From: Gammaproteobacteria bacterium
GTDB taxonomy: Bacteria > Pseudomonadota > Gammaproteobacteria > Burkholderiales > Rhodocyclaceae
Direction of reading: 5' to 3'
Length of the DNA stretch: 64,000 nt
NCBI GenBank assembly: GCA_018824085.1
Contig: JAHJHI010000032.1
Location: 1-64,000, forward strand
The position numbers were made by a program, and so were the translations under genes. Positions 908-51,751 of this stretch are shown here, in pieces. The notes under the pieces are model-generated. The model was not told where the DNA came from and did no database searches. It saw nothing but the letters and a program-made list of their open reading frames with translations. Position 1 is the first letter of the stretch, and each line of letters opens with the position of its first letter.

Positions 908-1546
908 TCAGCCCGAAAGAATCGCATTGGCGTGAATGATGGCCCGTGCGATCTCTTCGGTCGCTACGCGCTTGCTCATCGCCTGTTCGCGGATGATCTT
1001 GTAGGCTTCGGCGTCGGTGACGCCACGCGTGCGCATCAGTATGGCTTTCGCGTCGTTGATCTGGTTGATGCCCTGCAACTTCTGCTCCAGCCGCTGCACG
1101 CGCTTGCGGTAGCCGCGCACTTCCTGCGTGAGGCCGACGGTGAGCACCAGCGACGACAGCACGCCGGTTGATCGCAGCGGAGCGGTGAGCACGCCGGTGG
1201 CGCCCAGGCGCAGCATGGCCTCGAATATCGTCGGATTCTCGTAACCGACGATGGCGATGACGGCCGGCGGTTGTTCGAAGTTGCTGAAGTTCAGCAGCGC
1301 ATGCGTTTCGTGCGACTGGATGGCGTAGTAGACGACGTCGACGTTGTCCGGCAGGTCCTGCACCGGAGGCCAGAAGGTCTGCACCTGACAGCCGATGCGC
1401 TGCAGTTGCTGGATCAGCACTTCGCCGTCGGCATCGCGCGGGTGCAGCACGACGATGCGCAGGTTGCGCAGCTGGGTCAGAAACTCGGGCGTGAGGCGCC
1501 GACCCCGGGCGGACGGGCGTTGGGGGCTATTCACAGACGGTGTCAT
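908..1546 (-). CDS. amiR: AmiR-like ANTAR transcription antiterminator
   Basis: A cytoplasmic RNA-binding antiterminator of 212 residues, close to the usual ~200. Residues ~25-140 resemble a response-regulator receiver fold (LRIVVLHPRDADGEVL) without a phosphoacceptor motif, as in AmiR of Pseudomonas. A coiled coil follows (YRKRVQRLEQKLQ), then the ANTAR domain (INDAKAILMRTRGVTDAEAY, KIIREQAMSKRV). The family binds paired hexaloop hairpins in leader RNA and prevents terminator formation; it is held inactive by AmiC until an amide binds. The start codon overlaps the end of amiC by 20 bases, so the two are coupled. Two matching leader structures lie at 2786-2862 and 8258-8338. Confidence 0.92.
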   Translation of the reverse strand: MTPSVNSPQRPSARGRRLTPEFLTQLRNLRIVVLHPRDADGEVLIQQLQRIGCQVQTFWPPVQDLPDNVDVVYYAIQSHETHALLNFSNFEQPPAVIAIVGYENPTIFEAMLRLGATGVLTAPLRSTGVLSSLVLTVGLTQEVRGYRKRVQRLEQKLQGINQINDAKAILMRTRGVTDAEAYKIIREQAMSKRVATEEIARAIIHANAILSG

Positions 1547-2699
1547 CGATGGAGCTCATGCGCAGGCGCGTGCTCCAGTCGTCAAAGGAGTGGCTGACCA
1601 GATACGGGTCGGCGTCGACGCCGGTCGGCGTCTCGGCAAGGATGGCAAACTGGCCGTCGGCGTCGACCCGCCCGATGCGCGGATACAGGCGCGAGTGGTG
1701 GTTGTGCGGCAGGATGCGTATGCGGCCCTGCGGGGCATCGAATTCGCGGCCGAGCACGTGCGGCAGCAGGATGTGGTACTCGTCCGAGCCCGCGTCGCGG
1801 AACGAGTCGGCGAACACATGCACCTGGTTGTACGACGCCTCCCAGCTCATGTTCGGTTGCACTTGAGTGCCGAACAGCTTGCGGAACAGCGCGACACAGT
1901 TGCGGTTGCGCGGCGTGTCGATCGACTGGAAGTAGGGCCCGGCGGTGTAGTGCCCCTGCGCCACACGCAAACCCATTTCGGATATTTCTTCCTCGCTGGT
2001 GCACAGGCTGGCAATCGGCATCTTCTGCGGGTCAAGACCGGCGTCCGCGTACGCCTGATACAGCATGCGGGTGGTTTTTCCGACCACTGTCGAAAATATG
2101 AAATCCGGCTGCTTCGCCTTGATGTCTCGGATGATGGGCGTGAGCGCGCTTTCCTGCGCGTCGAGGTGAACGTAGCGCTCGCCCACCTTTGCGCCACCCT
2201 GACGGTGGTGCACGAAGTCGCTCATGATGCGGTTCGACTCGTACGGAAAGATGTAGTCGCTGCCCACCATATAGACGCGTGCGCCGAATCGGCTGGACAT
2301 GAATTCGGCGAGCAGCGCGCTGTTCTGGTTCGGCGCGCCGCCGGTGTAGATGATGTTGTTCGAGTATTCGAAGCCCTCGTACATCGTCGGGCAGAACAGC
2401 AGGCGGTTCCACTGCTCGACCACCGGCAGCACCGCCTTGCGCGTGCTCGACATGTAGCAGCCGAAGATGACATTCACCTTGTCGTCCTGGACCAGCCGTA
2501 TGGCGAGCGAGCGGAACAGCTGCGGATTCGAGCGCGGATCGTGGTAGACCGGAACGAGTTCCCGCCCGAGAATGCCGCCGGCATCATTGATCTCGCGGAT
2601 GGCGAACAGCGTGCCGGCGAGCATCGTGTTTTCGATGCGCGACGTCACGCCCTCTCGCGAGAAGAGGACGCCGACCTTGATCGGATCGTTATTGGACAA
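1527..2699 (-). CDS. amiC: AmiC-like cytoplasmic amide sensor / negative regulator
   Basis: A periplasmic-binding-protein fold (type I, Leu/amide-binding) used as an intracellular sensor: there is no signal peptide. Motifs strongly match Pseudomonas AmiC: FGCYMSSTRKAVLPVVEQ, PTMYEGFEYSNNIIY, GGAPNQNSALLAEF, VGSDYIFPYESNRIM, FSTVVG, APQGRIRI and the C-terminal DDWSTRLR. About 390 residues, family-typical. I chose the TTG at 2699 (MSNNDPIKVGVLF), where homology begins; an upstream TTG at 2720 is also open. By analogy AmiC sequesters AmiR and releases it when ligand binds. No amidase gene is nearby. The facing operon encodes a dimethylformamidase, so the ligand may be a formamide; that is inference. 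Confidence 0.9.
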   Translation of the reverse strand: MSNNDPIKVGVLFSREGVTSRIENTMLAGTLFAIREINDAGGILGRELVPVYHDPRSNPQLFRSLAIRLVQDDKVNVIFGCYMSSTRKAVLPVVEQWNRLLFCPTMYEGFEYSNNIIYTGGAPNQNSALLAEFMSSRFGARVYMVGSDYIFPYESNRIMSDFVHHRQGGAKVGERYVHLDAQESALTPIIRDIKAKQPDFIFSTVVGKTTRMLYQAYADAGLDPQKMPIASLCTSEEEISEMGLRVAQGHYTAGPYFQSIDTPRNRNCVALFRKLFGTQVQPNMSWEASYNQVHVFADSFRDAGSDEYHILLPHVLGREFDAPQGRIRILPHNHHSRLYPRIGRVDADGQFAILAETPTGVDADPYLVSHSFDDWSTRLRMSSIDDTVCE

Positions 2700-2746
2700 G
2701 GGTTTCCCGCCGATTAACAAAAAAACGTGATCGATACTAACAGAGC

Positions 2747-2775
2747 TTGACGTCGTGAAAGTCCCTCTCTACCAT
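2747..2775 (+). promoter_or_regulatory. Sigma70 promoter of the dimethylformamidase operon
   Basis: TTGACG (2747-2752), a 17-base spacer and TACCAT (2770-2775). Predicted transcription start is about 2782-2785, just before the first leader hairpin. The same TTGACG-N17-TAYCAT arrangement precedes the second leader at 8218-8246, which supports both calls. Confidence 0.75.
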
Positions 2776-2785
2776 AGCTCCATCA

Positions 2786-2831
2786 CTTCGCGCCGCCAGC
2801 ACTGCCGGCGCGAAGTTGGGCAAAAGGGCCT
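2786..2831 (+). promoter_or_regulatory. ANTAR-type dual-hexaloop antiterminator leader, copy 1
   Basis: Hairpin P1: a 10-bp stem (2786-2795 with 2806-2815) whose apex can close by a C-G pair on the six-base loop AGCACT (2798-2803). Two bases later, hairpin P2: stem 2818-2821 with 2828-2831 around the six-base loop AAAAGG (2822-2827). The P2 3' arm is also part of the terminator 5' arm, so P2 and terminator exclude each other. This is the architecture of AmiR/NasR/EutV target RNAs. As I recall, those loops favour A at position 1 and G at position 4; here position 4 is A in every loop. The likely ligand is the AmiR encoded at 908-1546. Confidence 0.75.
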
Positions 2832-2866
2832 GCACGAATCTCCGGATTCGGCAGGCCCTTTTGTTT
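2822..2866 (+). terminator. Attenuator terminator upstream of dmfA1
   Basis: A 12-bp arm AAAAGGGCCTGC (2822-2833) pairs with GCAGGCCCTTTT (2851-2862); the interior CGAATC/GATTCG also pairs. A U-rich tract follows (TTTTGTTTTGG). It sits ~115 bases before the first gene, so by default transcription would stop before dmfA1. It shares its 5' arm with hairpin P2. Confidence 0.85.
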
Positions 2867-2980
2867 TGGTTTTCCGGTTTTGTTTGGCTTTCGTCTTTTT
2901 CGTGATTTGGCTGCTTGGCGCCAGCGCCGGTCCCTTGCGGCAGGAGTTTTCAGACATTCAATACCTGAAGGAGATGGACC

Positions 2981-3421
2981 GTGATATCGATACCAAAGAA
3001 AGGGACGCCGGAACGTGACCGGCTGATCCGGGAGCACCTGGCGTGCGTGCAATCCATGCATGGCGTGGCGGGCTTTTCCGTCCTCAAGTGCGCGACACCC
3101 GGCGACACGACCGACGTGACCGGCGGCGTGCATGAAGACCCGCTGCTGCGCCGCGTACTGCTGCGCATGCGTGGCGCGTCGCCCAAGGGCAAGCTCATCG
3201 TCATCTGCACGAAGATCGAGGCGGAGTGGCGCATCGGCCGCCTGTCCGGCATCCGCGGCGTGCCGCCGGTGTTCGTCGACGACACCGTCTACACCAGCGA
3301 ACAGGACATCCAGCACGCCATCTTCCTGATGCGCCTGGACGAGATGGACGAAAGCGACGGCATGCCCGAGCACTACCACGACGGCTACAAGCGTCGCGAC
3401 GACAACTGGCCGGTCACCTGA
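2981..3421 (+). CDS. dmfA1: N,N-dimethylformamidase, small (alpha) subunit
   Basis: A cytoplasmic small subunit of 146 residues; the family is roughly 130-150. It lies immediately before the unmistakable large subunit, as in known dimethylformamidase (DMFase) operons. The N-terminal half is basic and helical (RDRLIREHLACVQSMHG); the middle holds KLIVICTKIEAEWRIGRLSG; the C-terminus is acidic and His-rich (MPEHYHDGY). The start is GTG at 2981, set by a strong AAGGAG Shine-Dalgarno at 2968-2973; an ATG at 2974 is in another frame and soon stops. With the large subunit it should hydrolyse dimethylformamide to dimethylamine and formate. The assignment rests on context and family resemblance. Confidence 0.82.
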   Translation: MISIPKKGTPERDRLIREHLACVQSMHGVAGFSVLKCATPGDTTDVTGGVHEDPLLRRVLLRMRGASPKGKLIVICTKIEAEWRIGRLSGIRGVPPVFVDDTVYTSEQDIQHAIFLMRLDEMDESDGMPEHYHDGYKRRDDNWPVT

Positions 3422-3443
3422 GCACGATCCGGCCCGTCCCGTA

Positions 3444-3471
3444 GCTGTTCCGGCATCGACGCCCGGACAGC
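3444..3471 (+). other. Intercistronic hairpin between dmfA1 and dmfA2
   Basis: GCTGTTCCGG (3444-3453) pairs with CCGGACAGC (3463-3471) with one bulged T and a nine-base loop. There is no U-tract, so it is not a terminator. It may set mRNA stability or relative output of the two subunits. The 119-base gap ends with the dmfA2 ribosome site (CTGGAGAAACC). Confidence 0.4.
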
Positions 3472-3540
3472 GATTTCCGAATATTTCAAGCAACGCATCC
3501 GACCCCCCGGAGGGCGGCGCTCGACCTGGAGAAACCAACA

Positions 3541-5937
3541 ATGTGTGCAATGCGACTGACCGGATACGCCGACAAATTCGGTGTGCATCCCGGCGATACG
3601 ATCAAGTTCCTCGTCAATTGCGACGGACCGAAGAAGTACCGCGCGTCCATCGTGCAGATGATCAACGGTGACACCAATCCGCGCGGTCCCGGCTTCATCG
3701 AGAAGGCGGTGAAGGCGGACTGTGAAGGCGACTACGACGGCATGAAGCAGGTCGTCTATGGCGGCTCCTACGGCTTCGTGCCGGACGCGCCGCAACTCAA
3801 TGTCGACAGCTTCACGCTGCAGTGCTGGATCTGGCCGACCACGCCGAAGACCGACAAGCGCTACTGGAAGCATGGCGCCCAGGGGCTTGTCACGAAGTGG
3901 TCGGGCGGCAAGGGCTACGGCCTGTTCGTCAATGCCGACGGCTGCGCCGAGTTGCGCATCAACGGTGAGACATACACCACGGGCGCGCCGCTGCGCGACC
4001 ACGCCTGGCACTTCGTTGCCGCCAGCTTTGACGCGGAGAGCGGCGAGGTGGTGCTGTATCACGAGCCGCAAGTGGTGTACGCACTCGACCCCGAAATCCC
4101 GCCGGTCAAGGCGACGTTCAAGGGCAAGGTCGAACACACTGACCAGCCGCTGGTGATCGCCGGCTTCGTCGACCACCTGGAACCGGGGCCGCTGGGCCTG
4201 TCCTCGCTGCCGCAGGGTGTCATCGTCGGCGGCCACTACAACGGCAAGATCGACAGCCCGCGCCTGTGCCGCCGCGCGCTGTCGCGGTTCGAGATCGAAA
4301 TGATGAAGGGCGGCGCGCAGCCGGGCCTGACCGAGCGCCGCAACGCCGGCCCGACCGGCGCGCTGTCGGAAGCCATCGTCGCCGCCTGGGATTTTTCCGA
4401 CGGCATCGACACGCTGGTTGCGAAGGACGCCGGCCCATACCGGTTCGACGCGACGCTGGTCAACTGCCCGACGCGTGCGCTCACCGGCTACAACTGGGCC
4501 GGCCAGACCTTCGACTGGAAGGTCGCGCCGAAGGAATACGGCGCCATCCACTTCCACGACGATGATCTGGACAACGCGCGCTGGCAGACGAGTTTCGAAT
4601 GGAAGGTACCGGCCGGCATCAAGAGCCGCTTCTACGCCGCGAAGCTCACGACACCGGAAGGCGACGAGGAATACATTCCGTTCTGGATCGTGCCGAAGAT
4701 CGGCCAGGAGCAATCGAAGATCGCCGTGATGGTGCCGACGATCAGCTACATGGCCTATGCGAACGAGCACGTCGCGTGCAACGCCGGCGGCGCCGAACTG
4801 TTCGTCTATCGCGTGCCCATCATGCAGCAGCAGAACATGTTCCTCGCCGAGCACCGCGAGTACGGCGGTTCGATCTATGACACGCACACGGACGGCAGCG
4901 GAATCTGCCTGTCGTCGCGGCTGCGTCCCATCCTGAGCATCCGCCCGAAGTACGACCACTTCCTCGCGCAGGCGCCCTGGCAGTATCCGGCCGACCTGCA
5001 CCTCATCTGCTGGCTGGAGCAGATGGGCTACGAGTACGACGTGTTCACCGACGAGGACGTGACCTACGACGGTCTGGCCCGGCTGGAAAACTACAACGTC
5101 ATCATTACCGGCTCGCACCCCGAGCACAATTCGGGCACCCAGCTCGACGCCCTGCACAACTACACGCAGCGCGGCGGCCGCCTGATGTACATGGGTGCTG
5201 ACGCCTGGTACTGGGTGCATTCCTTCCACCCGGCGTACGACGCGCTTGGTCGCGGCGTGGTCACCGAGATGCGCCGCTGCGAATCCGGCATCCGCACCTG
5301 GCGCGCGGACCCGGGTGAGTACTACCACCAGGGCACCGGCGAACTGGGCGGCATGTGGCGCTATCGCGGGCGTTACCTGCACTCGGTGGCCGGTACCGGC
5401 ATGTCGTCCGAAGGCTTCGACATCTCGTCCTACTTCTCGCGCACGCCGGAAAGTCTGGATGCACGCGTGAGCTGGGCCTTCGACGGCATCAGCTACGAGG
5501 AGAACCTGGGCAACTTCGGTCTGGTCGGTGGCGGTGCCGCGGGTCTGGAACTGGACATCGTCGACACCATGCTCGGTTCGCCGCCGCACATCCTGACCGT
5601 CGCCACGTCGGCCGGGCGCCACACCGAGGCCTATCTGCTGGTGATGGAGGATTTCGGCTTCAACCAGCAGGGTCTGGACGGAACCGTGCATCCACGCGTG
5701 CGCGCCGACATCACCTTCCACGAGACGCCGAACGGCGGCGGCTGCTTCGCGTTCAGCTCCATCGCCTATTGCGGCTCGCTGCCGTGGAACAACTGCGACA
5801 ACAACATTTCGCGTCTCACCAAGAACGTGCTCGACCGCTTCATGCAGGACGGCCCGCTGCCGGCCGCGCCGAAGGACGCGTTCAAGCACCGCGGTCGCGC
5901 GGACTACGAGTCGCCGGCGCTCGCGTCGTCAAGCTGA
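3541..5937 (+). CDS. dmfA2: N,N-dimethylformamidase, large (beta) subunit
   Basis: A catalytic subunit of 798 residues (about 760 in characterised enzymes). After an N-terminal beta region, residues ~90-185 form a LamG/concanavalin-like domain (SFTLQCWIWPTT, KGYGLFVNADG, HAWHFVAASFD). The C-terminal half is the DMFase-specific catalytic domain. The published enzyme has a mononuclear iron held by two Tyr and one Glu. From memory of that numbering, the counterparts here are Tyr406 (ISYMAY), Tyr446 (GGSIYD) and Glu528 (GSHPEH), all present. It hydrolyses dimethylformamide and related formamides in the cytoplasm. Three further genes follow on the same transcript. Regulation is probably by the AmiR leader upstream. 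Confidence 0.9.
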   Translation: MCAMRLTGYADKFGVHPGDTIKFLVNCDGPKKYRASIVQMINGDTNPRGPGFIEKAVKADCEGDYDGMKQVVYGGSYGFVPDAPQLNVDSFTLQCWIWPTTPKTDKRYWKHGAQGLVTKWSGGKGYGLFVNADGCAELRINGETYTTGAPLRDHAWHFVAASFDAESGEVVLYHEPQVVYALDPEIPPVKATFKGKVEHTDQPLVIAGFVDHLEPGPLGLSSLPQGVIVGGHYNGKIDSPRLCRRALSRFEIEMMKGGAQPGLTERRNAGPTGALSEAIVAAWDFSDGIDTLVAKDAGPYRFDATLVNCPTRALTGYNWAGQTFDWKVAPKEYGAIHFHDDDLDNARWQTSFEWKVPAGIKSRFYAAKLTTPEGDEEYIPFWIVPKIGQEQSKIAVMVPTISYMAYANEHVACNAGGAELFVYRVPIMQQQNMFLAEHREYGGSIYDTHTDGSGICLSSRLRPILSIRPKYDHFLAQAPWQYPADLHLICWLEQMGYEYDVFTDEDVTYDGLARLENYNVIITGSHPEHNSGTQLDALHNYTQRGGRLMYMGADAWYWVHSFHPAYDALGRGVVTEMRRCESGIRTWRADPGEYYHQGTGELGGMWRYRGRYLHSVAGTGMSSEGFDISSYFSRTPESLDARVSWAFDGISYEENLGNFGLVGGGAAGLELDIVDTMLGSPPHILTVATSAGRHTEAYLLVMEDFGFNQQGLDGTVHPRVRADITFHETPNGGGCFAFSSIAYCGSLPWNNCDNNISRLTKNVLDRFMQDGPLPAAPKDAFKHRGRADYESPALASSS

Positions 5938-6008
5938 TGCAAAGGCATCCGGACGGACGCCTGCGCCCGTCCGGATTTCACGAGTGGTTCCGCAAGAGGA
6001 GTCGTCAG

Positions 6009-7046
6009 ATGGAATGCATGACTGAACGTCCCGTCCGCCCGCACGGCGGCGCGGCACTGGCAGGACGCGCGTTCGACGTGGAGGCCTTCCGCTCGCTCGA
6101 TTTCGCGCGGCGCGAGGACGACGCGATCTGGACACATGAATGGGTGTGCATCGGCAGTGTGGCCGACATCCCCGGTGTCGGTGATCTGCTGCCCTTCACC
6201 GTGGGGGATCACGCAATCCACGTGCAGCGCATGCCCGGTGGTGAGCTGGCCGGGCGCTTCAACAAGGCGCAGCACGGCGGTTGCCGGGTGGTGCCGCTGC
6301 AGTGCCGGCAGGGCGCGAAGACGCCATGCTCCTTCACGTCGTGCGGCCACAGCCTGGACCGCCCGGCGATCCCCGCCGGCGAGCTCGACGTCGGCGCGCC
6401 GGCGATGTACCAGTACCTCGGGTTGCGTCCGGAGCGTCTGCTGCCGGTGCGCATCGCGACGCTGGGCCCGCTGCTGTTCGCGAATCTGGACCCCGGCGGC
6501 GAGCCCTTCGACACGACGGCATCAGCGGTGCGGCAGGCACTGCCCGCGCTTGCCGGCGAGGATTGGCGAGAGCCGCAGCAGCAATGGCACGCGTGCGATG
6601 CCAACTGGAAGCTCGCCGGCCAGCACCTGGTCGGGGCGTCACCGAGCGCGCCGCTGTCCGGCAACGACGTGCTCCTTGTCCAGACCGATGACGGCGGCAC
6701 GCGCGCGCTCTGGCTTTTCCCCAATCTGGTCGTGCTGGCGACGGCGGCGAGCCTGTGCGTCGTCGTGCTGCAGGCGACCGCACTGACACGAACGCTGTGC
6801 CGGGTGGTGACGTTCGCACGCGGCGACCGCGCACCCGCGCCATGGGATGTCTTGCTCGCAGCGCGGCTGGGCGCCGCCGCCCGCGCGCAGGCGGCGATCG
6901 AAGGTGGTGGCATACGTGGTCGCGGCAGCGACCCCGCGCAGCATCTCGACCCCGGCGGGCGCTGGCTGGAAGCGCAGGTACTGGCACGCATGGCGGCGCA
7001 CGACGCCGCCTCACCGATGGACCGACAGGGGGAGCCCCGCACATGA
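6009..7046 (+). CDS. Rieske-oxygenase-like protein with degenerate cluster motif
   Basis: A 345-residue protein with the layout of a ring-hydroxylating oxygenase alpha subunit: the N-terminal motif IWTHEWVCIGSVADIP, a Rieske-like domain (~35-140), then the NWKLAGQHL element of the catalytic domain. The Rieske ligands are damaged: the expected Cys-x-His reads A87-Q-H89, and Cys-x-x-His reads C107-S-F-T110. The usual ENF and His-His-Asp iron ligands after NWK are also absent (QHLVGASPS). It is thus probably not a functional oxygenase in the standard sense. The start at 6009 follows AAGAGGAG. It is in the dimethylformamidase operon, its stop overlapping the next ATG. A role in metallation or assembly is speculation. 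Confidence 0.75.
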   Translation: MECMTERPVRPHGGAALAGRAFDVEAFRSLDFARREDDAIWTHEWVCIGSVADIPGVGDLLPFTVGDHAIHVQRMPGGELAGRFNKAQHGGCRVVPLQCRQGAKTPCSFTSCGHSLDRPAIPAGELDVGAPAMYQYLGLRPERLLPVRIATLGPLLFANLDPGGEPFDTTASAVRQALPALAGEDWREPQQQWHACDANWKLAGQHLVGASPSAPLSGNDVLLVQTDDGGTRALWLFPNLVVLATAASLCVVVLQATALTRTLCRVVTFARGDRAPAPWDVLLAARLGAAARAQAAIEGGGIRGRGSDPAQHLDPGGRWLEAQVLARMAAHDAASPMDRQGEPRT

Positions 7047-7738
7047 ATGCATTGATGGAAACCCGCAGCACCGGGTCGCTCGACGACGCGGTGGCCGCGT
7101 ATCACGGTGGCGACATGGCGATGGCCGTCCGCCTGTTCGAGCAACTGGCCGAGGCTGGAGACATCGAGGCGCAGGCCTGGACCGGTGCGCTGCATGCAAA
7201 TGGAGAAGGCGTGCCGGCCGACCTTGCGCTCGCCTTTCGCTGGTATCTGCGCGCGGCCGAGGGCGGTCACGTGCCGGCGCAGACCAATGTCGGCGCGATG
7301 CTGATGATGGGTTCGGGCGTGCCGGTCGATCCGGCACAGGGACTGCGCTGGCTGCGTGCCGCGGCGCAGGCCGGAGACGCGATGGCGCAGAGCAATCTCG
7401 CCACTGTGTACTTCAAGGGGCAGGGCGTTCCGCAGGACGAGGCCGAGGCATTCAAGTGGTACCGGCAGGCAGCCGGGCAGGGGCATTTCCCCTCACAGGC
7501 GCGGCTGGGTTTCATGTACGCAAACGGGCTTGGCGTGGGCAAGGACCGCGCGCAGGCCTTTGCCTGGCTGTCGCTCGCCGCGCAGCATGGCGTCGGCAGC
7601 GCGCTCAACGCGCTCGAAGGCATGATCGGCCAGATGTCGGCCGAGGAGAAGCAGACCGGCGCCGCGCTGTTCGACCAGTGGCGCAACCGTACGGCGGCGG
7701 TGTCGTCGCCGGCGCGGCTGATTCCGGTTCCGGGGTGA
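7043..7738 (+). CDS. Sel1-like repeat (TPR-type) protein
   Basis: A 231-residue helical repeat protein. Sel1 units of ~36 residues recur: AQAWTGALHANGEGVPADLA, AQTNVGAMLMMGSGVPVDPA, AQSNLATVYFKGQGVPQDEA, SQARLGFMYANGLGVGKDRA. There is no signal peptide, so it probably acts as a cytoplasmic protein-protein scaffold. Its ATG overlaps the stop of the Rieske-like gene (ATGA), and the 104-aa gene follows five bases after its stop. It presumably assists assembly or stability of the multimeric dimethylformamidase; this is inferred from operon position only. Confidence 0.82.
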   Translation: MNALMETRSTGSLDDAVAAYHGGDMAMAVRLFEQLAEAGDIEAQAWTGALHANGEGVPADLALAFRWYLRAAEGGHVPAQTNVGAMLMMGSGVPVDPAQGLRWLRAAAQAGDAMAQSNLATVYFKGQGVPQDEAEAFKWYRQAAGQGHFPSQARLGFMYANGLGVGKDRAQAFAWLSLAAQHGVGSALNALEGMIGQMSAEEKQTGAALFDQWRNRTAAVSSPARLIPVPG

Positions 7739-7743
7739 GCGCG

Positions 7744-8058
7744 ATGAGCTACAGCGTGCAGCAGATCAAGTTCGAGTGCCTCAGCTACATCAAGGAGTTC
7801 GGCGCGCGCATGGACGACTGGGCGATCGGCATGGCGGACGATCCGGAACACGCGCTGTTCGGCCTGTGCGGCATCGACCCCGAGCGCGACATCTGGATAT
7901 GGAAGCCGGCGCTGTCGGTCAACGCGGCGCGAACCGTCGTGGACTTCATGACCCAGCGCTATCGCCTGCACGCGGCCGCGTCCTCGAGTGCGCCGCCGTG
8001 CGGGCGCTGCGTCTTCATGTACCGGCGGCGGATGGCGGCTCCCGGCACCAGCGGCTGA
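7744..8058 (+). CDS. Conserved-looking 104-aa protein of unknown function
   Basis: A small soluble protein that I cannot assign to a family. Features: an acidic N-terminal half (YIKEFGARMDDWAIGMADD), CGIDPERDIWIW in the middle, and a basic Cys-containing tail (PPCGRCVFMYRRR) that could bind a metal through its CxxC. It begins five bases after the Sel1 gene's stop and is the last gene of the dimethylformamidase transcript, upstream of a GC-rich hairpin. It may be an iron-handling or assembly helper, but nothing in the sequence proves that. Confidence 0.65.
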   Translation: MSYSVQQIKFECLSYIKEFGARMDDWAIGMADDPEHALFGLCGIDPERDIWIWKPALSVNAARTVVDFMTQRYRLHAAASSSAPPCGRCVFMYRRRMAAPGTSG

Positions 8059-8082
8059 GCGCATGGATGCAGCCCGGCCCGT

Positions 8083-8120
8083 GCCGGCATCGGCCGCTTC
8101 GTGCGCCGGTGCCGGCCTTT
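8083..8120 (+). terminator. Possible terminator of the dimethylformamidase operon
   Basis: A 12-bp GC-rich stem GCCGGCATCGGC (8083-8094) with GCCGGTGCCGGC (8105-8116) and a 10-base loop, followed by only CTTT. The stem is strong but the U-tract weak, so termination may be partial and allow read-through into the next unit. Confidence 0.5.
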
Positions 8121-8217
8121 GCGCGCCCGTGAAATGCCTTCATCATCAATGTCTTCCGTGCACGTCGTCCGTGCGCGGATGTGGACGAAATTCCTGAAAA
8201 AAACCGCTCGCCGGTGC

Positions 8218-8246
8218 TTGACGCGTCACATCGGCCTGCCTATCAT
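8218..8246 (+). promoter_or_regulatory. Sigma70 promoter of the urtA-like/urease unit
   Basis: TTGACG (8218-8223), a 17-base spacer and TATCAT (8241-8246), near consensus. Predicted start is ~8253, a few bases before hairpin P1. The -35 overlaps a perfect 10-base palindrome TGACGCGTCA (8219-8228) that could also be an operator. Confidence 0.82.
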
Positions 8247-8257
8247 CGATTCAACTT

Positions 8258-8302
8258 CACGCGCCGCCAGCATTGCCGGTGCGTGACAAGGCAAAAGGGC
8301 CT
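8258..8302 (+). promoter_or_regulatory. ANTAR-type dual-hexaloop antiterminator leader, copy 2
   Basis: Hairpin P1: a 9-bp stem (8258-8266 with 8277-8285, one G-T pair) whose apex closes on the six-base loop AGCATT (8269-8274), one base different from copy 1. Hairpin P2: AGGC (8289-8292) with GCCT (8299-8302) around the six-base loop AAAAGG (8293-8298), identical to copy 1. The P2 3' arm lies inside the terminator 5' arm. Stem pairing is conserved despite base differences from copy 1, for example the closing C-G/A-T pairs. AmiR is the likely binding protein. Confidence 0.78.
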
Positions 8303-8338
8303 GCCCTGGATCTCCGATCCGGGCAGGCCCTTTTTTTT
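8293..8338 (+). terminator. Attenuator terminator upstream of the urtA-like gene
   Basis: AAAAGGGCCTGCCC (8293-8306) pairs with GGGCAGGCCCTTTT (8321-8334); the interior GGATC/GATCC pairs as well; eight T residues follow (8331-8338). It is a strong intrinsic terminator ~100 bases before the start codon, mutually exclusive with P2. Confidence 0.9.
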
Positions 8339-8435: not shown

Positions 8436-9611
8436 ATGAAAAATCAATTCAGGCGTGAATTCGTCAAAGGTCTGGCGCTGGCATCCGTCGCTGCGCCCTG
8501 GATGGTGCGCACGGCGCTCGCTGCAGAAACGGTGAAGGTCGGCATCCTGCATTCGTTGACCGGCACCATCGCGCTGGCCGAAGCATCGGTCGTCGACGCC
8601 GAGAAGCTTGCCATCGACGAAATCAACGCGTCCGGCGGCGTGCTCGGTCGAATGATCGTGCCGGTGGTCGAGGACGGCGCGAGCGACTGGCCGACGTTCG
8701 CCGAGAAGGCGCGCAAGCTGCTCGACCGCGACAAGGTGTCCGCCGTGTTCGGCTGCTACACATCGGCCTCGCGCAAGGCGGTGCTGCCGGTGTTCGAACA
8801 GATGAAGGGCCTGCTGTACTACCCGACCTACTACGAAGGCCAGGAGCAGTCGCCGAACATCCTCTACACGGCGCACGAGGCGACGCAGCAGTGCATCCAG
8901 GCGTGCAACTGGCTGCTGGCGAACCGCGGCAAGAGTGTCTATCTGGTCGGCTCGGACTACATCTGGCCGCGCGTCACCAACAAGATCGCGCGCCCGACCA
9001 TCGTCAAGGGCGGTGGCAAGGTCGTCGGCGAGGAGTACATGCCGCTGGGCAGCACGTCCTTCGGTTCGCTGATCAACAAGATCAAGGTGACCAAGCCCGA
9101 CATCATCCTCAGCACCGTCGTCGGTGGCTCCAACGTGGCCTTCTACAAGCAGCTCAAGGCGGCCGGTGTGAACTTCAAAAAAACCACTGTGATGGCGTTT
9201 GCGGTGACGGAGGAAGAGGTGTCGGGCATCGGCAACGAGAACGTCGAGGACGTGCTGACCTGCATGAGCTACTTCCAGAGCCTCGATAACCCAGCGAACA
9301 AGAAGTTCGTCGCGGCCTTCAAGGCGAAGTACGGCGACAAGCGCGTCACCGGTGACACGCTGGCCAGCGCCTACACCGCCGTCCATCTGTGGAAGGCGGC
9401 GGTCGAGAAGGCGAAGAGCTTCGATGTCGAGAAGGTGGTCGCCGCGTCGGCCGGGCTCGAATTCGAAGGGCCGGAAGGCAAGGTGAAATTCCACGAGAAG
9501 AACCATCACCTGTGGAAGCAGGCCCGTATCGGCGCATTCGGCGCCGACGGCCAGGTGAAGATCCTGTACGAGTCGCCGCTGATCGAGCCCAACCCGTATC
9601 CGACGCTGTAA
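8436..9611 (+). CDS. UrtA/FmdD-like urea or short-amide ABC substrate-binding protein, Tat-exported
   Basis: A periplasmic solute-binding protein of 391 residues. The N-terminus FRREFVKGLALASVAAPW carries a twin-arginine motif; cleavage is likely near ALA-AE (~30). The body matches the urea/short-chain-amide binding family: GILHSLTGTIALAE, EINASGGVLGR, FGCYTSASRKAVLPVFEQ, YYPTYYEGQEQSPNI, VGSDYIWPR. The start at 8436 has GAGG six bases upstream; longer upstream frames lack this. It resembles AmiC, so sensor and importer share a fold. No permease or ATPase gene accompanies it, unlike urtABCDE; the partners must be elsewhere or it has another role. Urease genes follow after a hairpin. Confidence 0.88.
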   Translation: MKNQFRREFVKGLALASVAAPWMVRTALAAETVKVGILHSLTGTIALAEASVVDAEKLAIDEINASGGVLGRMIVPVVEDGASDWPTFAEKARKLLDRDKVSAVFGCYTSASRKAVLPVFEQMKGLLYYPTYYEGQEQSPNILYTAHEATQQCIQACNWLLANRGKSVYLVGSDYIWPRVTNKIARPTIVKGGGKVVGEEYMPLGSTSFGSLINKIKVTKPDIILSTVVGGSNVAFYKQLKAAGVNFKKTTVMAFAVTEEEVSGIGNENVEDVLTCMSYFQSLDNPANKKFVAAFKAKYGDKRVTGDTLASAYTAVHLWKAAVEKAKSFDVEKVVAASAGLEFEGPEGKVKFHEKNHHLWKQARIGAFGADGQVKILYESPLIEPNPYPTL

Positions 9612-9695: not shown

Positions 9696-10193
9696 ATGCT
9701 CAGACTGACAGACATCGTCGGCAATGCCGCCGACCCCGATATCGCGGACCGGCTGCACGACATCGACCATGACGGCGGCGTCGAGCGCGTGCGCCTGTCG
9801 CGCAGCGACCTCGCGCGCCGCCGCCAGCGCCTGGTGACCGATCGCGGCACCGAGTTCGCGTTGTTGCTGGACCGCTCCGCATCGCTGGAAAACGGCTCGG
9901 TGCTGCTGCTCGAAGCGGGGCGCGCCGTGCTCGTCGTGCTTGAACAACCGCAGTGGCTGGTGCTTCGAGCGGCGCATGTGGCGGGCGCGCTGGAGATCGG
10001 TTACTTCGCCGGCAACATGCACTGGAAGGTGCGCTTCGAGAACGACTGCATCTGGATCGCTCAGGAAGGACCGCGCGACACCTACCTGAAACGCGTCGCG
10101 CATCTGCTGGCGCGCGGCGACGCGGTGGTTCTGGACACCTCCGACGCGCTGGCCGGCGGCGTGCGCCACCTCCATGTACCTCATGCGCACTGA
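9696..10193 (+). CDS. ureE: Urease accessory protein UreE (nickel chaperone)
   Basis: A 165-residue nickel-binding metallochaperone that delivers nickel to the UreD-UreF-UreG complex. The start MLRLTDIVG is typical. The two domains are visible: the N-terminal beta domain (RVRLSRSDLARRRQRLVTDR) and the metal-binding domain (YFAGNMHWKVRFEN, where the NxHW motif holds the conserved His). The C-terminal tail is only mildly His-rich (RHLHVPHAH), unlike Klebsiella UreE. It is first of the urease genes; the order is unusual, since accessory genes normally follow ureC. ureF starts one base after its stop. Confidence 0.85.
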   Translation: MLRLTDIVGNAADPDIADRLHDIDHDGGVERVRLSRSDLARRRQRLVTDRGTEFALLLDRSASLENGSVLLLEAGRAVLVVLEQPQWLVLRAAHVAGALEIGYFAGNMHWKVRFENDCIWIAQEGPRDTYLKRVAHLLARGDAVVLDTSDALAGGVRHLHVPHAH

Positions 10194-10194
10194 C

Positions 10195-10941
10195 ATGAAC
10201 GCGCCGCAGATTCCCTTTCATATGCCCGCACCTTCCGGCGACGGCGGTGGCGACGCGTCGGCCATGCTGAACATGCTGCAATTCGCCGACAGCTTCTTCC
10301 CGAGCGGCGCGACGTCATTCTCGTGGGGACTGGAGTCGCTGAAGCTCGACGGCAAGGTCGCTGGCGCCGAACAGGTTTTCGAACTGCTGAGCAGCCATGT
10401 CGAACAGCGCTGGGCCGGCTTTGACCGGCCGCTGATGCAGGCCGCGCGCGACGCGTGGTCACAGCGCGGTGCCGCCGCGTTGGGCGAGGCGATGGAACTC
10501 GACCGCCTGTGCGAAGCGATGAACCTTGCGCGCGGCTGGCGCGACGCGAGCCGCCGGCTCGGTTTCACGCAGTTGCGTGTGCATGCCGACCTCGGCCTGG
10601 GCATCGCGCAGGTGTACCTCGACCAGGTGCGCGCAAGCGGGCTGCCCGGCCACCTGCCGGTGGTGCAGGGCTTGCTGTGGGGCGCCTACGGCCTGTCGCC
10701 GGCGGGTTGCGACGCGATGGTGGCCAGCGGCCTGTGCACGACGGTGGTCGGCGCGGCGTTGCGCATGGGCCTGATCGGCCACACCGACGGCCAGCGCCTG
10801 ATCGCGCGTGCGCGCCCGCTCATTGCGCGCGTCATCGCGAGCCCGGTGCCGTCGCTCGACGAGCTGTGGACCGGCGCGCCCGCGCTCGATGTCGCGGCCA
10901 TGCGGCACGAGCCGCGCCGCGCGCGACTGTTCGCCAACTGA
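10195..10941 (+). CDS. ureF: Urease accessory protein UreF
   Basis: A helical urease maturation factor of 248 residues that gates GTP hydrolysis by UreG. Family motifs: LQFADSFFPSGATSFSWGLE, then a long helical bundle with MNLARGWRDASRRLGFTQL and GHLPVVQGLLWGAYGL. I used the ATG one base after the ureE stop; an in-frame ATG at 10174 inside ureE is possible, and neither has a clear ribosome site, pointing to translational coupling. Confidence 0.9.
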   Translation: MNAPQIPFHMPAPSGDGGGDASAMLNMLQFADSFFPSGATSFSWGLESLKLDGKVAGAEQVFELLSSHVEQRWAGFDRPLMQAARDAWSQRGAAALGEAMELDRLCEAMNLARGWRDASRRLGFTQLRVHADLGLGIAQVYLDQVRASGLPGHLPVVQGLLWGAYGLSPAGCDAMVASGLCTTVVGAALRMGLIGHTDGQRLIARARPLIARVIASPVPSLDELWTGAPALDVAAMRHEPRRARLFAN

Positions 10942-10968
10942 CATGTACACCGTGAACGGAGAATCCCC

Positions 10969-11679
10969 ATGCTGCTGACGCCCACCGAACTGGAGCGCCT
11001 CACGCTGTTCAATGCCGCGGAACTTGCGCGCCGCCGGCGCGCGCGCGGCCTGCAGCTGAACTGCCCGGAGGCGATCGCCATCATCGCCGACGAGATACTC
11101 GAAGGCGCGCGCGACGGTCGCACCGTTGCCGAGCTGATCGGCTTCGGCTCGCAGATACTGAACAGCGACGACGTGCTTCCCGGCGTTCCCGCGCTGATGC
11201 CGATGATCCAGGTGGAAGCCGGTTTTCCGGACGGTACCAAACTGGTGACGGTGCATGACCCGATCCGCCCCGGGCCGTGCGCGCAGGCGCAGGCACCGGC
11301 CGGCCCGCAACGCACGCCGGGCGAAATCATCGCCGCCGACGGTGACATCGAACTGAATGCCGGGCGCCGGCGCGCCACGCTGCGCGCGCTCAACACCGGT
11401 GACCGGCCGATACAGGTGGGCAGCCATTTCCACTTCTTCGAGGTGAATCGCGCGCTGGAATTCGACCGCGCGCTGGCCTGGGGCATGCATCTGGACATCG
11501 CGGCCGGCACCGCCGTGCGCTTCGAGCCGGGTGAGGACAAGGAAGTGACGCTGGTGGCATTCGGCGGTACCGGCGAGGTGTTCGGACTGAACCGCCTGGC
11601 CGACGGACAGACGGCGGACGGCAGCGGGCTTGCCGACGCGCTGGAGCGTGCGCGCCGTGCCGGCTTCCGGGGCGCCTGA
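10969..11679 (+). CDS. ureAB: Urease gamma-beta fusion subunit (UreA-UreB)
   Basis: A structural subunit of 236 residues in which gamma (UreA, residues 1-100: [39 protein letters not shown]) is fused to beta (UreB, ~115-236: [52 protein letters not shown]). The joint is a short Ala/Pro-rich linker. Most proteobacterial ureases have separate ureA and ureB; fusion is known in Helicobacter and some actinobacteria and betaproteobacteria. The start has GGAGA upstream. Together with UreC it hydrolyses urea to ammonia and carbamate in the cytoplasm. Confidence 0.95.
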
Positions 11680-11711
11680 ACAATGAGCACGCAGACACGG
11701 GAGACGATGAC

Positions 11712-13424
11712 ATGGCACGGCTGACCCGCCGCGATTACGCGGCAATGTACGGACCGACCACGGGTGACATGGTGCGCCTGGGCGACACGTCGCTGCTGGC
11801 CGAAATCGAGCATGACCACACCACGCCGGGTGACGAGTGCCTGCACGGCGGCGGCAAGACGCTGCGCGACGGTCTGGGCATGATGGCCGGACTCACGTCG
11901 GCGCAGGGCGCGCTCGACATGCTGATCAGCAACGTCGTCGTCATCGACGCGGTCGTCGGCATCGTCAAGGGCGACATCGGCATCAAGGACGGACGCATCG
12001 TCGCCATCGGCAAGGCCGGCAATCCGCACGTGATGGACGGCGTGCATCCGCAGCTGCTGGTGGGCAACGCAACCACCGTGCGCGACGGCGAGGGGCTGAT
12101 CGCCACGGCCGGCGGGCTGGACGTGCATGTGCATTTCGACTCCGCCCAGCTGGTGGAACATGCGCTGGCGTCCGGCATCACGACGATGTTCGGCGGCTCG
12201 CTCGGGCCGATCACCGTCGGCATCGACTGCGGCGGCGCCTGGAACGTCGCGCGCATGCTGCAGGCGTCGGAACAGTGGCCGATGAACTTCGGCTTCCTCG
12301 GGCGCGGCAATTCGTCCCGCCCGGAATCACTGGTCGAACAGATGAAGGCCGGCTGCATCGGCCTGAAGATCCACGAGGACTGGGGCGCGACGCCGGCGAC
12401 GATAGACACCTGCCTGACGGTCGCCGACGAGATGGACTTCCAGGTGCAGCTGCATACCGACACGCTGAACGAATCCGGCTTCCTCGAAGACACCCTCGCC
12501 GCGACGAAGGGCCGCACCATCCACATGTATCACACCGAAGGTGCCGGCGGCGGACATGCGCCGGACGTGATCTGCGTGGCCGGGTTGCAGCACTGCCTGC
12601 CGTCGTCGACCAATCCGACGAACCCGTACACGGTGAATACCTTCGACGAGCACCTGGACATGATCATGGTGTGCCACCACCTGAATCCGGCGGTGCCGGA
12701 GGACGTGGCGTTCGCCGAAAGCCGCATCCGCGCGCAGACCATCGCGGCCGAGGACGTGCTGCACGACATGGGCGCGATTTCGATGCTGGGCTCCGACAGC
12801 CAGGGCATGGGGCGCATCAACGAAGTGATCTGCCGCACCTGGCAGCTGGCCAGCAAGATGAAGGACCAGTTCGGCCGCCTGCCGGAAGAGCGCACGCGCA
12901 GCGCCGACAACGAACGCATCCTGCGCTACATCGCGAAGTACACGATCAACGCCGCGCGCTCCTTCGGCGTCGACCACCACGTCGGTTCGCTGGAGCCGGG
13001 CAAGATGGCGGACGTCGTACTGTGGCGGCCGGCCTTCTTCGGCATCAAGCCGGAAATCGTCGTCAAGGGCGGTTTCATCGCCTATGGCGCGATGGGCGAT
13101 TCGGCAGCGTCGCTGATGACCTGCGAGCCGCTCATCATGCGGCCGCAGTGGGGCGCCTTCGGCCGCGCGCCGCAGGGGCTGTCGGCCAACTTCGTCTGCG
13201 CCGCGTCGCTCGACGGCGATCTTGCCGGGCGGCTCGACCTGCGCAAGCCGCTGCTGGCGGCACGCGGCACGCGCACGCTGCGCAAGTCCGACATGGTGCG
13301 CAACGCCGCCTGCCCGAACATTTCCGTCAACCCGCAGACGTTCGAAGTCAGCGTGGATGGGCGTGTGATCGGCTGCGAACCGGCGGATCGCGTGCCGTTG
13401 AACCGTCTCTACATGATGAGGTGA
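11712..13424 (+). CDS. ureC: Urease alpha subunit UreC
   Basis: The catalytic subunit with the di-nickel site, 570 residues (usual ~567-570). All key residues are visible: HVHF gives metal ligands H139/H141; GLKIHEDW gives the carbamylated K219 and H221; [14 protein letters not shown] and HTDTLN supply further His; the flap is MVCHHLN with C321; GSDSQGMGR gives D362. Maturation should need the accessory genes around it (E, F upstream; G, D downstream). UreG starts four bases after its stop. Confidence 0.98.
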
Positions 13425-13428
13425 TGCG

Positions 13429-14070
13429 ATGACCGCACAAATGGATGCGCGCGCTGCACCGCGCGGCGCGGCGCGCGTCGGCATCGGCGGCCCGGTCGGC
13501 TCGGGCAAGACCGCGCTGCTCGAACAGCTCATTCCGCGCTTCATTGCGCGCGGCACCGACATCGCCGTCATCACCAACGATCTGGTGACCGACGAGGACG
13601 CGGAGCGCGTGCGCCGCACCGGGCTCATCGCGCCCGAGCGCGTGCTGGCCGTCGAAACCGGCGCCTGTCCGCACACCGCGATACGCGAGGACCCGACGCT
13701 CAACCTCGCCGCCGCCGACGAACTGGACCGCCGCTACCCGGGGCTGGAGCTCATTCTGGTGGAGAGCGGTGGCGACAATCTGGCGTCGTCTTTCTCGCTC
13801 GATCTGGTCGACTACTGGCTGTTCGTCATCGACGTGGCCGGTGGCGACGACATTCCGCGCAAGCGCGGTCTGGGCGTGGTGCAGTGCGACCTGCTGGTCA
13901 TCAACAAGACGGATCTCGCGCCGCATGTGCGCGTTGACCTTGCCCGCATGGTGCGTGAAGCGGACGAGGTGCGCGCCGGGCGCGCGACCCTGCTGACCAA
14001 TTGCGCGAGCGGTGACGGCGTGGATGCCGTCGTGGAACGGATTGCGCGGGAGGTGCTGTTTGACCACTGA
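13429..14070 (+). CDS. ureG: Urease accessory GTPase UreG
   Basis: A SIMIBI-class GTPase of 213 residues that drives nickel insertion into apo-urease. The P-loop is [17 protein letters not shown]; the metal-binding motif reads [13 protein letters not shown] (Cys-Pro-His intact); [12 protein letters not shown] and [13 protein letters not shown] supply the remaining GTPase elements. The N-terminus has a short Arg/Ala-rich extension rather than a His tract. ureD begins inside its last codons. Confidence 0.97.
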
Positions 14071-14962
14071 GGCCGACCTCGCCGAGCGGCCACCCGGGAC
14101 GGTGCCGGCACCCGAGGTGCCGGACTCGCGCGCGGCGCGGCCGTGCTTCGAGCTTGCGTTCCGGCGCGACGGCAGCGGTCGCAGCTTCGTCGGTGCGCAG
14201 TACGTGCGCTATCCGGTGCACGTCGGCCGCGGCCTGCATACGGATGGCGCGGCGCCGGACATGTGCGTGGTCTATCTGCAGTCTGTGTCGGGCGGCCTGT
14301 TCGAGCACGATCAGGTCGACGGACGGATCGAGGTTGCGGCGGGCGCCGCCGCCCACGTGGCGACGCCGGCCTCCACCGTCGTGCATGCGATGAGCGGCGG
14401 CAGCGCCGGGCAGACGGCCGCGCTGATCGCCGCGCCGGGTGCGCTGCTCGAATACATGCCGGCGCCGGTCATCCTGTTTCCGGGCAGCCACCTGCGCAGC
14501 CGCACCACGGTGAGCCTGGCGCCGGATGCGCTGGTGCTGGTCGCGGAAACCTTTCTCGCACACGACCATGCAGGCGGCGGCGACGGCTTTGCGCGATTCG
14601 AGTCGGCGGTGGACGTGTCGGACGAGGCGGGCACTTTGCTTGCGCGCGAGCGCATGCGCATCGACGGTGATGCCTGGCGCGCCGCAACGGTTGCGGTGGC
14701 GGCGGGCATGCGGGTGCACGGCAGCCTGTGGGTGCTGCGGCGCGGTGCCGGAGACGTGCTGCATGCGGCGCTACTCGACGCAGCGGCCGCCGCGGAGGCG
14801 GACGGCGCCTACGCGGGTGCGTCGCGGCTGCCGGGGGACGCGGGCGTCGTGTTTCGCGTGCTCGGGCCCGACGCGGTCAGCGTCGAGCGCGCGCAGCATC
14901 GAGCGTGGTCAGCCGTGCGGACTGTTCATGCCGGCAGGGCGCCGGCGCTGCGACGACGCTGA
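14060..14962 (+). CDS. ureD: Urease accessory protein UreD
   Basis: A urease maturation scaffold of 300 residues; with UreF and UreG it forms the pre-activation complex. Motifs: [64 protein letters not shown]. The start is TTG at 14060, chosen because GGGAGG (14048-14053) lies six bases upstream; it overlaps ureG by 11 bases. ureD is usually first in urease operons but is last here. The C-terminus is Ala/Arg-rich and poorly conserved. The downstream gene is convergent. Confidence 0.9.
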
Positions 14963-51440: not shown

Positions 51441-51516
51441 GCGGGAATAGCTCAGTTGGTAGAGCGCAACCTTGCCAAGGTTGAGGTCGCGAGTTCGAGC
51501 CTCGTTTCCCGCTCCA
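51441..51516 (+). tRNA. tRNA-Gly (GCC), copy 1
   Basis: 76 bases with encoded CCA. Acceptor GCGGGAA/TTCCCGC, anticodon loop CTTGCCAAG with GCC, T-loop GTTCGAGC. Identical in sequence to the copy at 51676-51751. Confidence 0.98.
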
Positions 51517-51525
51517 AGATTCAAG

Positions 51526-51551
51526 AAGGGGAAGCTCTGCTTCCCCTTTTT
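51526..51551 (+). terminator. Terminator between tRNA-Gly copy 1 and tRNA-Cys
   Basis: AAGGGGAAGC (51526-51535) with GCTTCCCCTT (51539-51548), loop TCT, T-run to 51551. It implies that tRNA-Gly 1 is largely transcribed alone, or that the downstream tRNAs get read-through. Confidence 0.85.
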
Positions 51552-51567
51552 ACTTGGCTACACCTCA

Positions 51568-51641
51568 GGCGAGGTGGCAGAGTGGTCATGCAGCGGCCTG
51601 CAAAGCCGTGGACGCCGGTTCGATTCCGACCCTCGCCTCCA
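51568..51641 (+). tRNA. tRNA-Cys (GCA)
   Basis: 74 bases with encoded CCA. Acceptor GGCGAGG/CCTCGCC, anticodon GCA at 51600-51602 in CTGCAAA, T-loop GTTCGATT. Only 34 bases separate it from the next tRNA. Confidence 0.97.
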
Positions 51642-51675
51642 AAGACAGAAAGATCGGTGCGCCACGCACCGGTAC

Positions 51676-51751
51676 GCGGGAATAGCTCAGTTGGTAGAGC
51701 GCAACCTTGCCAAGGTTGAGGTCGCGAGTTCGAGCCTCGTTTCCCGCTCCA
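51676..51751 (+). tRNA. tRNA-Gly (GCC), copy 2
   Basis: 76 bases, identical to copy 1, with encoded CCA and anticodon GCC. It is followed by a terminator nearly identical to that after copy 1, suggesting that tRNA plus terminator was duplicated around tRNA-Cys. Confidence 0.98.

Follow-up and report, generated by a model that had tools for sequence, protein, structure and literature searches.

The closest described relatives of the element studied here are the attenuators read by ANTAR-domain proteins, known from the amiE leader of Pseudomonas aeruginosa, the eut leaders of Enterococcus faecalis and the nasF leader of Klebsiella oxytoca. AmiC binds AmiR, and an amide releases it (PMC3369931). 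EutV, placed on the hairpins P1 and P2 of its leader, stops the terminator, and P1, P2, the closing pairs, the first and fourth loop bases (A1 and G4) and the linker all matter (PMC3369931). NasR senses nitrate itself and prefers G4, and its target has dual hexaloops with a C-G closing pair and A1, as determined by systematic evolution of ligands by exponential enrichment (PMC7496416). EutV is phosphorylated by EutW, whereas AmiR is probably sequestered by AmiC. Two leaders of this kind were analyzed in a 64,000-nucleotide stretch of DNA (positions 1 to 64,000 of contig JAHJHI010000032.1, assembly GCA_018824085.1; hereafter the window) from a methylotrophic bacterium of the Rhodocyclaceae, in which two neighboring nitrogen-gene operons, for a probable N,N-dimethylformamidase (DMFase; dmfA1A2) and for UrtA and urease, share one leader type. 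Neither the mechanism nor the AmiC-AmiR pair is new. As far as the literature search goes, the proposed two-operon DMFase/urease regulon, a leader branch with A at loop position 4 (A4) and an association between that base and AmiR residue 160 (EutV numbering) are plausibly new; no AmiR-controlled DMFase leader or residue-160/base-4 rule was recognized in the open-licence literature searched.

Two promoter-attenuator modules

The order promoter, P1, P2 and overlapping terminator was found twice, before dmfA1A2 (2747-2870) and before urtA-urease (8218-8338):

2747..2775, + strand: promoter 1, TTGACG-N17-TACCAT (-35 box 2747-2752, -10 box 2770-2775; pattern scan)
2785..2816, + strand: P1 hairpin, copy 1, loop AGCACT at 2798-2803 (pair alignment, covariance model, RNAfold)
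2818..2831, + strand: P2 hairpin, copy 1 (antiterminator), loop AAAAGG at 2822-2827 (covariance model, RNAfold)
2818..2866, + strand: intrinsic terminator 1 with U-run, excluding P2 (hairpin scan, RNAfold)
8218..8246, + strand: promoter 2, TTGACG-N17-TATCAT (-35 box 8218-8223, -10 box 8241-8246)
8257..8286, + strand: P1 hairpin, copy 2, loop AGCATT at 8269-8274 (pair alignment, covariance model, RNAfold)
8289..8302, + strand: P2 hairpin, copy 2, loop AAAAGG at 8293-8298 (covariance model, RNAfold)
8293..8334, + strand: intrinsic terminator 2, excluding P2 (hairpin scan, RNAfold)

Both terminators rest on the hairpin scan and RNAfold; a simple pattern scan of 2650-3000, which found promoter 1, listed no terminator-like site there. 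An earlier sequence-only reading of the window had proposed twin modules with compensatory stem changes, nearly invariant loops and the hairpin order of ANTAR targets, and each of these points was borne out by direct reading, by RNAfold or by a covariance model trained on 38 leaders, all from other genera. Complete leaders were folded by RNAfold as P1 plus terminator (z -8.1 for copy 1 and -7.0 for copy 2) and, once the 3' arm of the terminator was removed, as P1 plus P2, so P2 and the terminator are mutually exclusive, which matches the ANTAR attenuators already described. Eleven pairs and one mismatch were counted in P1 and four pairs in P2, one of them G-U in copy 1. The two P1 copies differ at 4 of 12 positions, three of them with compensatory changes on both strands of the stem and the fourth with a G-C/G-U exchange; in both copies the position next to the loop-closing pair is a C.C mismatch. 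A stands at position 1 of all four loops. For RNA without protein, folding predicts a pair between the two end bases of the P1 loop (A1-U6), and 'hexaloop' is therefore a reading borrowed from known ANTAR targets.

Measured against the ANTAR-leader consensus of Ramesh 2012, both copies have two stem-loops with at least three pairs each and six-base loops (A1-U6 being paired in naked P1), a P2 that overlaps an intrinsic terminator, and a fixed loop-to-loop distance of 24 nucleotides (nt). Because A4 replaces G4 in both loops of both copies, the window leaders were classed as a variant and not as canonical members. Hairpin order, C-G closing pairs and A1 are shared with the eut leaders of E. faecalis, where A29 and A53 of eutP also lie 24 nt apart (PMC3369931), the usual loop spacing of the family, and P2 of the window, GGCAAAAGGGCCT, resembles the eut 13-mer AGCAANGRRGCUY. 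A TTGAC-N17/18-TANNAT promoter ends 22 bases before loop 1 in 16 copies (window and loci L069-L075, by eye), and an automatic promoter scan agreed in 15 of the 16.

The leader family

AmiR_N exceeded its cut-off in 26 of 399 genomes of the order, and 28 regions around AmiR_N matches were taken for leader reading; a scan with an AmiC alignment gave 232 relatives, of which the best 80 were kept. Fifty-one distinct leaders were read in the collected loci, with ties resolved toward a spacing of 24-25. Both this reading and the site count accepted a site only when P1 had A1 and four pairs or more and P2 had the core GCA.....GC. The count gave 64 P2-plus-terminator sites in 1.59 megabases of loci (overlapping loci counted twice), 58 of them with P1 in register and all 58 closed by C-G; when this DNA was shuffled five times with dinucleotides preserved, 10 such sites arose in total, 2 with P1. 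A second count, which favored no particular spacing, loop base or closing pair and still required the P2 core (including A1 of P2) and a terminator, yielded 55 distinct sites, one of them without P1. The longest P1 lay at spacing 24 in 28 of the remaining 54 and at 25 in 11; 48 of these P1 loops had A1 and 50 a C-G closing pair. The C.C mismatch at the second P1 pair recurred in 28 of the 51 leaders.

Window copies were scored at 42.4 and 40.4 bits by the 38-leader model, the next best match in the window at 14.6. Both-sided changes were seen in 8 of 11 pairs among the 38 leaders (shuffle mean 6.7; 58 of 500 shuffles reach 8), and the cells with such changes numbered 71 against 22.5 in shuffled alignments, a count that none of 500 shuffles reached. 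The covariation score was 0.415 versus 0.137 shuffled (0 of 500 reach it) and at most 0.111 when the pairing was slid. No Rfam family reached threshold in the window leaders, and Rfam was discarded as an identifier. Searches of the whole genome, in one of which scoring covered the best 150 of 4813 candidates, gave no leader beyond these two, and weak matches (19-22 bits, maximum 21.8) were set aside as coding-like stretches without a matching loop-terminator set.

Two further features of the family were noted. A dyad like ACGAGAAATCGTC lies about 25-45 nt upstream of P1 in L179, L184, L186, L190, L191, L200 and L201, that is, in several Comamonadaceae and relatives, and was not seen in the Methyloversatilis copies (all by eye); it is possibly the site of a further regulator or part of a promoter. 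In three Paraburkholderia loci (L132:2834-3095, L145:2904-3163, L147:2875-3162) a pair of leaders some 200 bases apart is arranged back to back, one on each strand.

Association with AmiR and AmiC

The regulators named in the sequence-only reading adjoin the leaders:

908..1546, - strand: amiR, 212 amino acids, AmiR_N pseudo-receiver plus ANTAR domain (Pfam AmiR_N 124.6 bits, ANTAR 48.8 bits)
1527..2720, - strand: amiC-like sensor, Peripla_BP_5/UrtA-type (Pfam PF13433, 444 bits; start codon uncertain)

An AmiR_N and ANTAR protein is thus encoded together with a periplasmic-binding-type sensor, which scored 317 with the UrtA model (cut-off 492.75) and has no evident signal peptide as judged by eye. 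P. aeruginosa AmiR (1qo0_D) was the best solved-structure match of the window AmiR by sequence.

Among named organisms, Methyloversatilis stands closest to the source genome (80-88% AmiC identity in L069-L075). Exactly two leaders were found in 11 of 13 genomes of the genus (E 0.01) and none in the other two; AmiR_N is present in exactly those 11 and absent from the two. This co-occurrence (11/11 with, 0/2 without) is the strongest link to the AmiR protein. DMFA2 occurs in 12 of the 13. G405 has it with neither AmiR nor leader; G402 and G406 have a second DMFA2 gene, which is well away from every leader match. Strong and similar terminators alone would account for part of the likeness between copies. 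It is nevertheless extremely improbable that the elements are plain intrinsic terminators, or repeated terminator elements, with no RNA-binding regulator, given that P1 stands mostly at one distance, that its closing pair is near constant and that in the genus they occur only with AmiR. Operation of the attenuator by a ligand-binding riboswitch or by another protein was judged very unlikely: some relatives do have the extra dyad upstream, but the leaders are made up of two small hairpins and lack a large conserved core, their spacing and closing pairs fit ANTAR targets, and they are linked to amiR.

Outside the genus, at least one leader was found in 34 of 39 AmiC-bearing genomes (E 0.01) and in 21 of 23 of a second set (E 0.05; one genome counted twice), usually a single one. 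Twelve genomes of the first set and two of the second had supplied model leaders; without them the counts are 22/27 and 19/21. A class-wide sample gave a leader in 2 of 369 genomes, one of them this genome, the other match (L241) having no terminator in the stretch examined; the sample is a soft control because filters and threshold were stricter and fewer candidates were scored.

The order leader, dmfA1, dmfA2, Rieske-like gene, Sel1 gene, open reading frame (ORF), leader, urtA is constant in seven Methyloversatilis loci. In L080 and L082, amiC and urtA are divergent genes, urtA being accompanied by urease in L082, and the DNA fetched there has no dmf genes, so the dmf unit with a second leader was probably inserted between amiC and urtA.

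Other ANTAR proteins were also noted. The source genome encodes two more, at C9:17311-17469 and C16:21994-22149 (L001, L002), one with Glu160 and NasT-like by impression, the other without the Tyr and Met needed by EutV for RNA. No leader was found beside their genes with the later filters (19.5 and 16.7 kilobases scanned), and no RNA target of the Glu160 protein was found in this search; a weak dual-loop candidate in the first, 19.5-kilobase stretch (L047) had a loop spacing of 17, out of family register, and disappeared under the later filters. The Pararobbsia alpina genome G811 (L128) has seven AmiR_N proteins and five leader matches, and in one of its AmiRs (L266) the RNA-binding face has lost its conserved Met and Arg.

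Loop base 4 and its possible protein partner

The only ANTAR-RNA structure known to us is that of EutV. In the EutV target G4 flips out and stacks on Tyr164, and in P2 it is held by Arg142, Lys149 and Glu160; E160A costs 60-fold in affinity and Y164A 55-fold (PMC8934654). That G is the usual base at loop position 4, as supposed in the sequence-only reading, was confirmed (PMC3369931, PMC7496416), and the amiE loops of P. aeruginosa have A1 and G4 (Ramesh 2012, PMC3369931); in actinobacterial ANTAR RNAs the conservation of A1/G4 is given as only 'more than 50%' in the consensus (PMC8164766). P. aeruginosa AmiR, NasR and EutV have Glu at position 160; the window AmiR has Asp (D178 by residue alignment).

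When 14 chosen AmiR residues were compared with the leaders, E160 was accompanied by G4 in P1, and Asp, Lys, Ala or Ile at this position by A4. Of 85 loci, 50 were E160/G4, 32 non-E/A4, 2 E/A4 (L095, L130) and 1 D/G4 (L085), so that the rule was kept in 82 (Fisher p 7e-20, ignoring ancestry); L129 and L050 repeat other loci, which leaves 83 distinct. Predictions for 25 AmiRs were set down before their leaders were fetched, and 22 had a leader. Twenty-one were right, namely E to G4 in 15 of 16 (L130 wrong) and non-E to A4 in 6 of 6; several rows are from Achromobacter or Variovorax and not independent. L100 was not blind, being the same DNA as L050, whose leader had been read, and the L110 leader was already visible; 19 of 20 were right after both were dropped. 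L110 has a seven-base loop and was scored as G4.

Mutual information with P1 base 4 was highest for residue 160 among 574 columns (195 of AmiR and 379 of AmiC), at 0.759, followed by 0.564 for the next AmiR column and 0.537 for the best AmiC column; AmiC columns served as a control for ancestry because AmiC, the neighbor of AmiR, should share much of the same history. On an AmiC+AmiR tree built with column 160 removed, residue and base each change five times. Four independent pairs were found on supported branches, as a rule two or three in the predicted direction, with one contrary pair in 5 of 200 pairings and in 0 of 200 the other way round. Sign tests were not significant on this tree (median p 0.5 in one direction, 0.25 in the reverse) or on the AmiR tree (three independent pairs, median p 0.5), and the link is unproven because there are only about three to five independent switches.

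A4 in P1 thus appears, from these comparisons, to have changed together with one AmiR amino acid. With slightly less than even chances, G4 is read by Glu160, and Asp, Lys or Ala at that position accompanies A4, as a one-residue/one-base ANTAR code for the flipped-out loop base; such a code could be swapped by one mutation per side and in Methyloversatilis would separate the AmiR regulon from the Glu160 NasT-like ANTAR protein of the same cell. Somewhat below even chances was put the proposal that the leaders are of ANTAR type and base 4 is neutral for AmiR, any purine stacking on the conserved Tyr, and that the Glu/Asp pattern reflects shared ancestry only. Neutrality would agree with the few independent switches and the sign tests above, with the three exceptions (L095, L130, L085) and with P2, where base 4 was A in 39, G in 6 and T in 1 of 46 distinct leaders (spacing 23-25) whatever residue 160; it sits less well with the first rank of residue 160 despite AmiC's similar history and with the affinity lost by EutV E160A. 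The variant specificity supposed in the sequence-only reading was therefore kept for P1 as an unproven link and not for P2, where A4 is widespread in the clade irrespective of the protein. P2 base 4 was dropped as a specificity base; it belongs to the A-tract of the terminator and may do no more than pair with the U-run. R142 was dropped as a partner of base 4, since most of the clade lacks it no matter which base is present.

Several loci were left out of the 85. Those that agree are L043 (E160, G4); L051, L053, L054, L055, L058 and L066 (E160; P1 AGGGCT, L066 by eye); L082 (G160, A4, by eye); L148 (A160, A4, near twin of L138); and a second L109 leader with G4, next to a different AmiR that has E160. 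The L128 genome has four more leaders, which were unclear; one of them has G4 and adjoins a D160 AmiR lacking the conserved Met and Arg. AmiR is truncated in L068 and L096, and L060, L089 and L098 are the same DNA as another row. No leader was found in L114, L121, L137, L094, L076 or L077/L063, nor in the fetched part of L044 and L046. Among 13 alphaproteobacterial regions, also outside the 85, leaders were accepted in L295, L296 and L297 (E160; G4 in P1, twice in L297). L300 (spacing 32), L303 (D160, C at position 4) and L301 (E160, three-pair stems; it would be A4, contrary to the rule) were weak candidates and not accepted, and no leader was found in the other seven.

Proposed control of the two operons

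The AmiC-AmiR pair next door very probably reads both leaders, and it is highly probable that ligand-bound AmiC frees AmiR, which then holds P1 and P2 and stops termination at both operons. From the folds and comparisons above we infer binding by AmiR, release by ligand, antitermination and recognition of base 4. Transcription would start a few bases after each -10 box, so that the RNA would begin almost directly with P1. As long as inducer is lacking, AmiC would hold AmiR and RNA polymerase would halt at the terminator. Binding of a small amide or urea by AmiC (dimethylformamide, formamide or urea, the choice being a guess) would release AmiR; the freed protein would bind the P1 and P2 loops, keep P2 folded and block the terminator, and dmfA1A2 and urtA-urease would be switched on together as a two-operon ANTAR antitermination regulon. 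Loop base 4 is A in place of the canonical G, in P1 together with an Asp that replaces the base-contacting Glu of EutV.

Residues matching EutV K149, Y164, R168, M172 and R175 are kept in the window AmiR. Several points weigh against control by AmiR as drawn here. EutV R142, K143, K147, N173 and R177 are not kept; the canonical G4 is missing from both loops, and G32A and G56A in the EutV target reduce induction (PMC3369931); P2 has only about four pairs; and 5 of the 39 and 2 of the 23 AmiC genomes gave no leader, although the L082 miss seems to have one by eye.

An AmiC-type sensor, an AmiR with pseudo-receiver and ANTAR domain and an attenuator before genes for nitrogen-releasing enzymes are shared with P. 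aeruginosa. The AmiC-AmiR regulators of P. aeruginosa sit inside the attenuated operon, whereas the window amiCR genes are divergent and apparently serve two operons. ANTAR regulons predicted by Ramesh 2012 likewise have nitrogen genes and urea transporters among their targets, and no DMFase regulon is mentioned in the available parts of that paper; its search model kept A1 and G4 in each loop and could therefore miss or down-rank A4 leaders (PMC3369931). Leader searches that hold G4 could in this way overlook a branch of ANTAR targets. The family offers a natural test of how ANTAR domains choose RNA, and dimethylformamide breakdown and urease join the functions under probable AmiR control. 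If the residue-160/base-4 code is true, a swappable residue/base pair would supply orthogonal attenuators for laboratory circuits.

Genes and minor features of the window

The regulators (908-2720) are encoded leftwards; dmfA1A2 and three ORFs run rightwards to 8058, and urtA and urease genes to 14962:

2981..3421, + strand: dmfA1-like, putative N,N-dimethylformamidase small subunit (position; weak best PDB match 6lvb_B, E 0.14)
3541..5937, + strand: dmfA2, probable N,N-dimethylformamidase large subunit (Pfam DMFA2_C 302.9 bits; PDB 6lvb_A, E 5e-155)
6009..7046, + strand: Rieske oxygenase large-subunit-like ORF, weak similarity (NCBIfam GbcA 35 bits, far under cut-off; no Pfam match)
7043..7738, + strand: Sel1-repeat protein (family profile search)
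7744..8058, + strand: small ORF, kept in seven Methyloversatilis loci (no Pfam or NCBIfam family matched)
8436..9611, + strand: urtA, urea-type ABC substrate-binding protein (TIGR03407 524 bits, over cut-off; ORF from 8376, ATG at 8436)
9696..14962, + strand: ureE, ureF, ureAB (fused), ureC, ureG, ureD (family profile search)

Homology of DmfA2 to the solved large subunit 6lvb_A spans query residues 5-777 and points to the enzyme assignment. The Rieske-like ORF is 54-67% identical to its counterparts in L069-L075, compared with 94-95% for DmfA2, which suggests a fast-changing or decaying oxygenase. urtA precedes the urease genes without urtBCDE in between; no search for a partner permease was made. 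At 780-890, next to the 3' end of amiR, stands what by eye seems to be the truncated start of an IS3-type transposase gene, a hint of an island border. Left of amiR, the motif GTGCGTCNCCTATTGTTT is repeated at 184-202 and 230-248 (by eye). Three consecutive tRNA genes, two of them identical in sequence, lie at 51441-51748.

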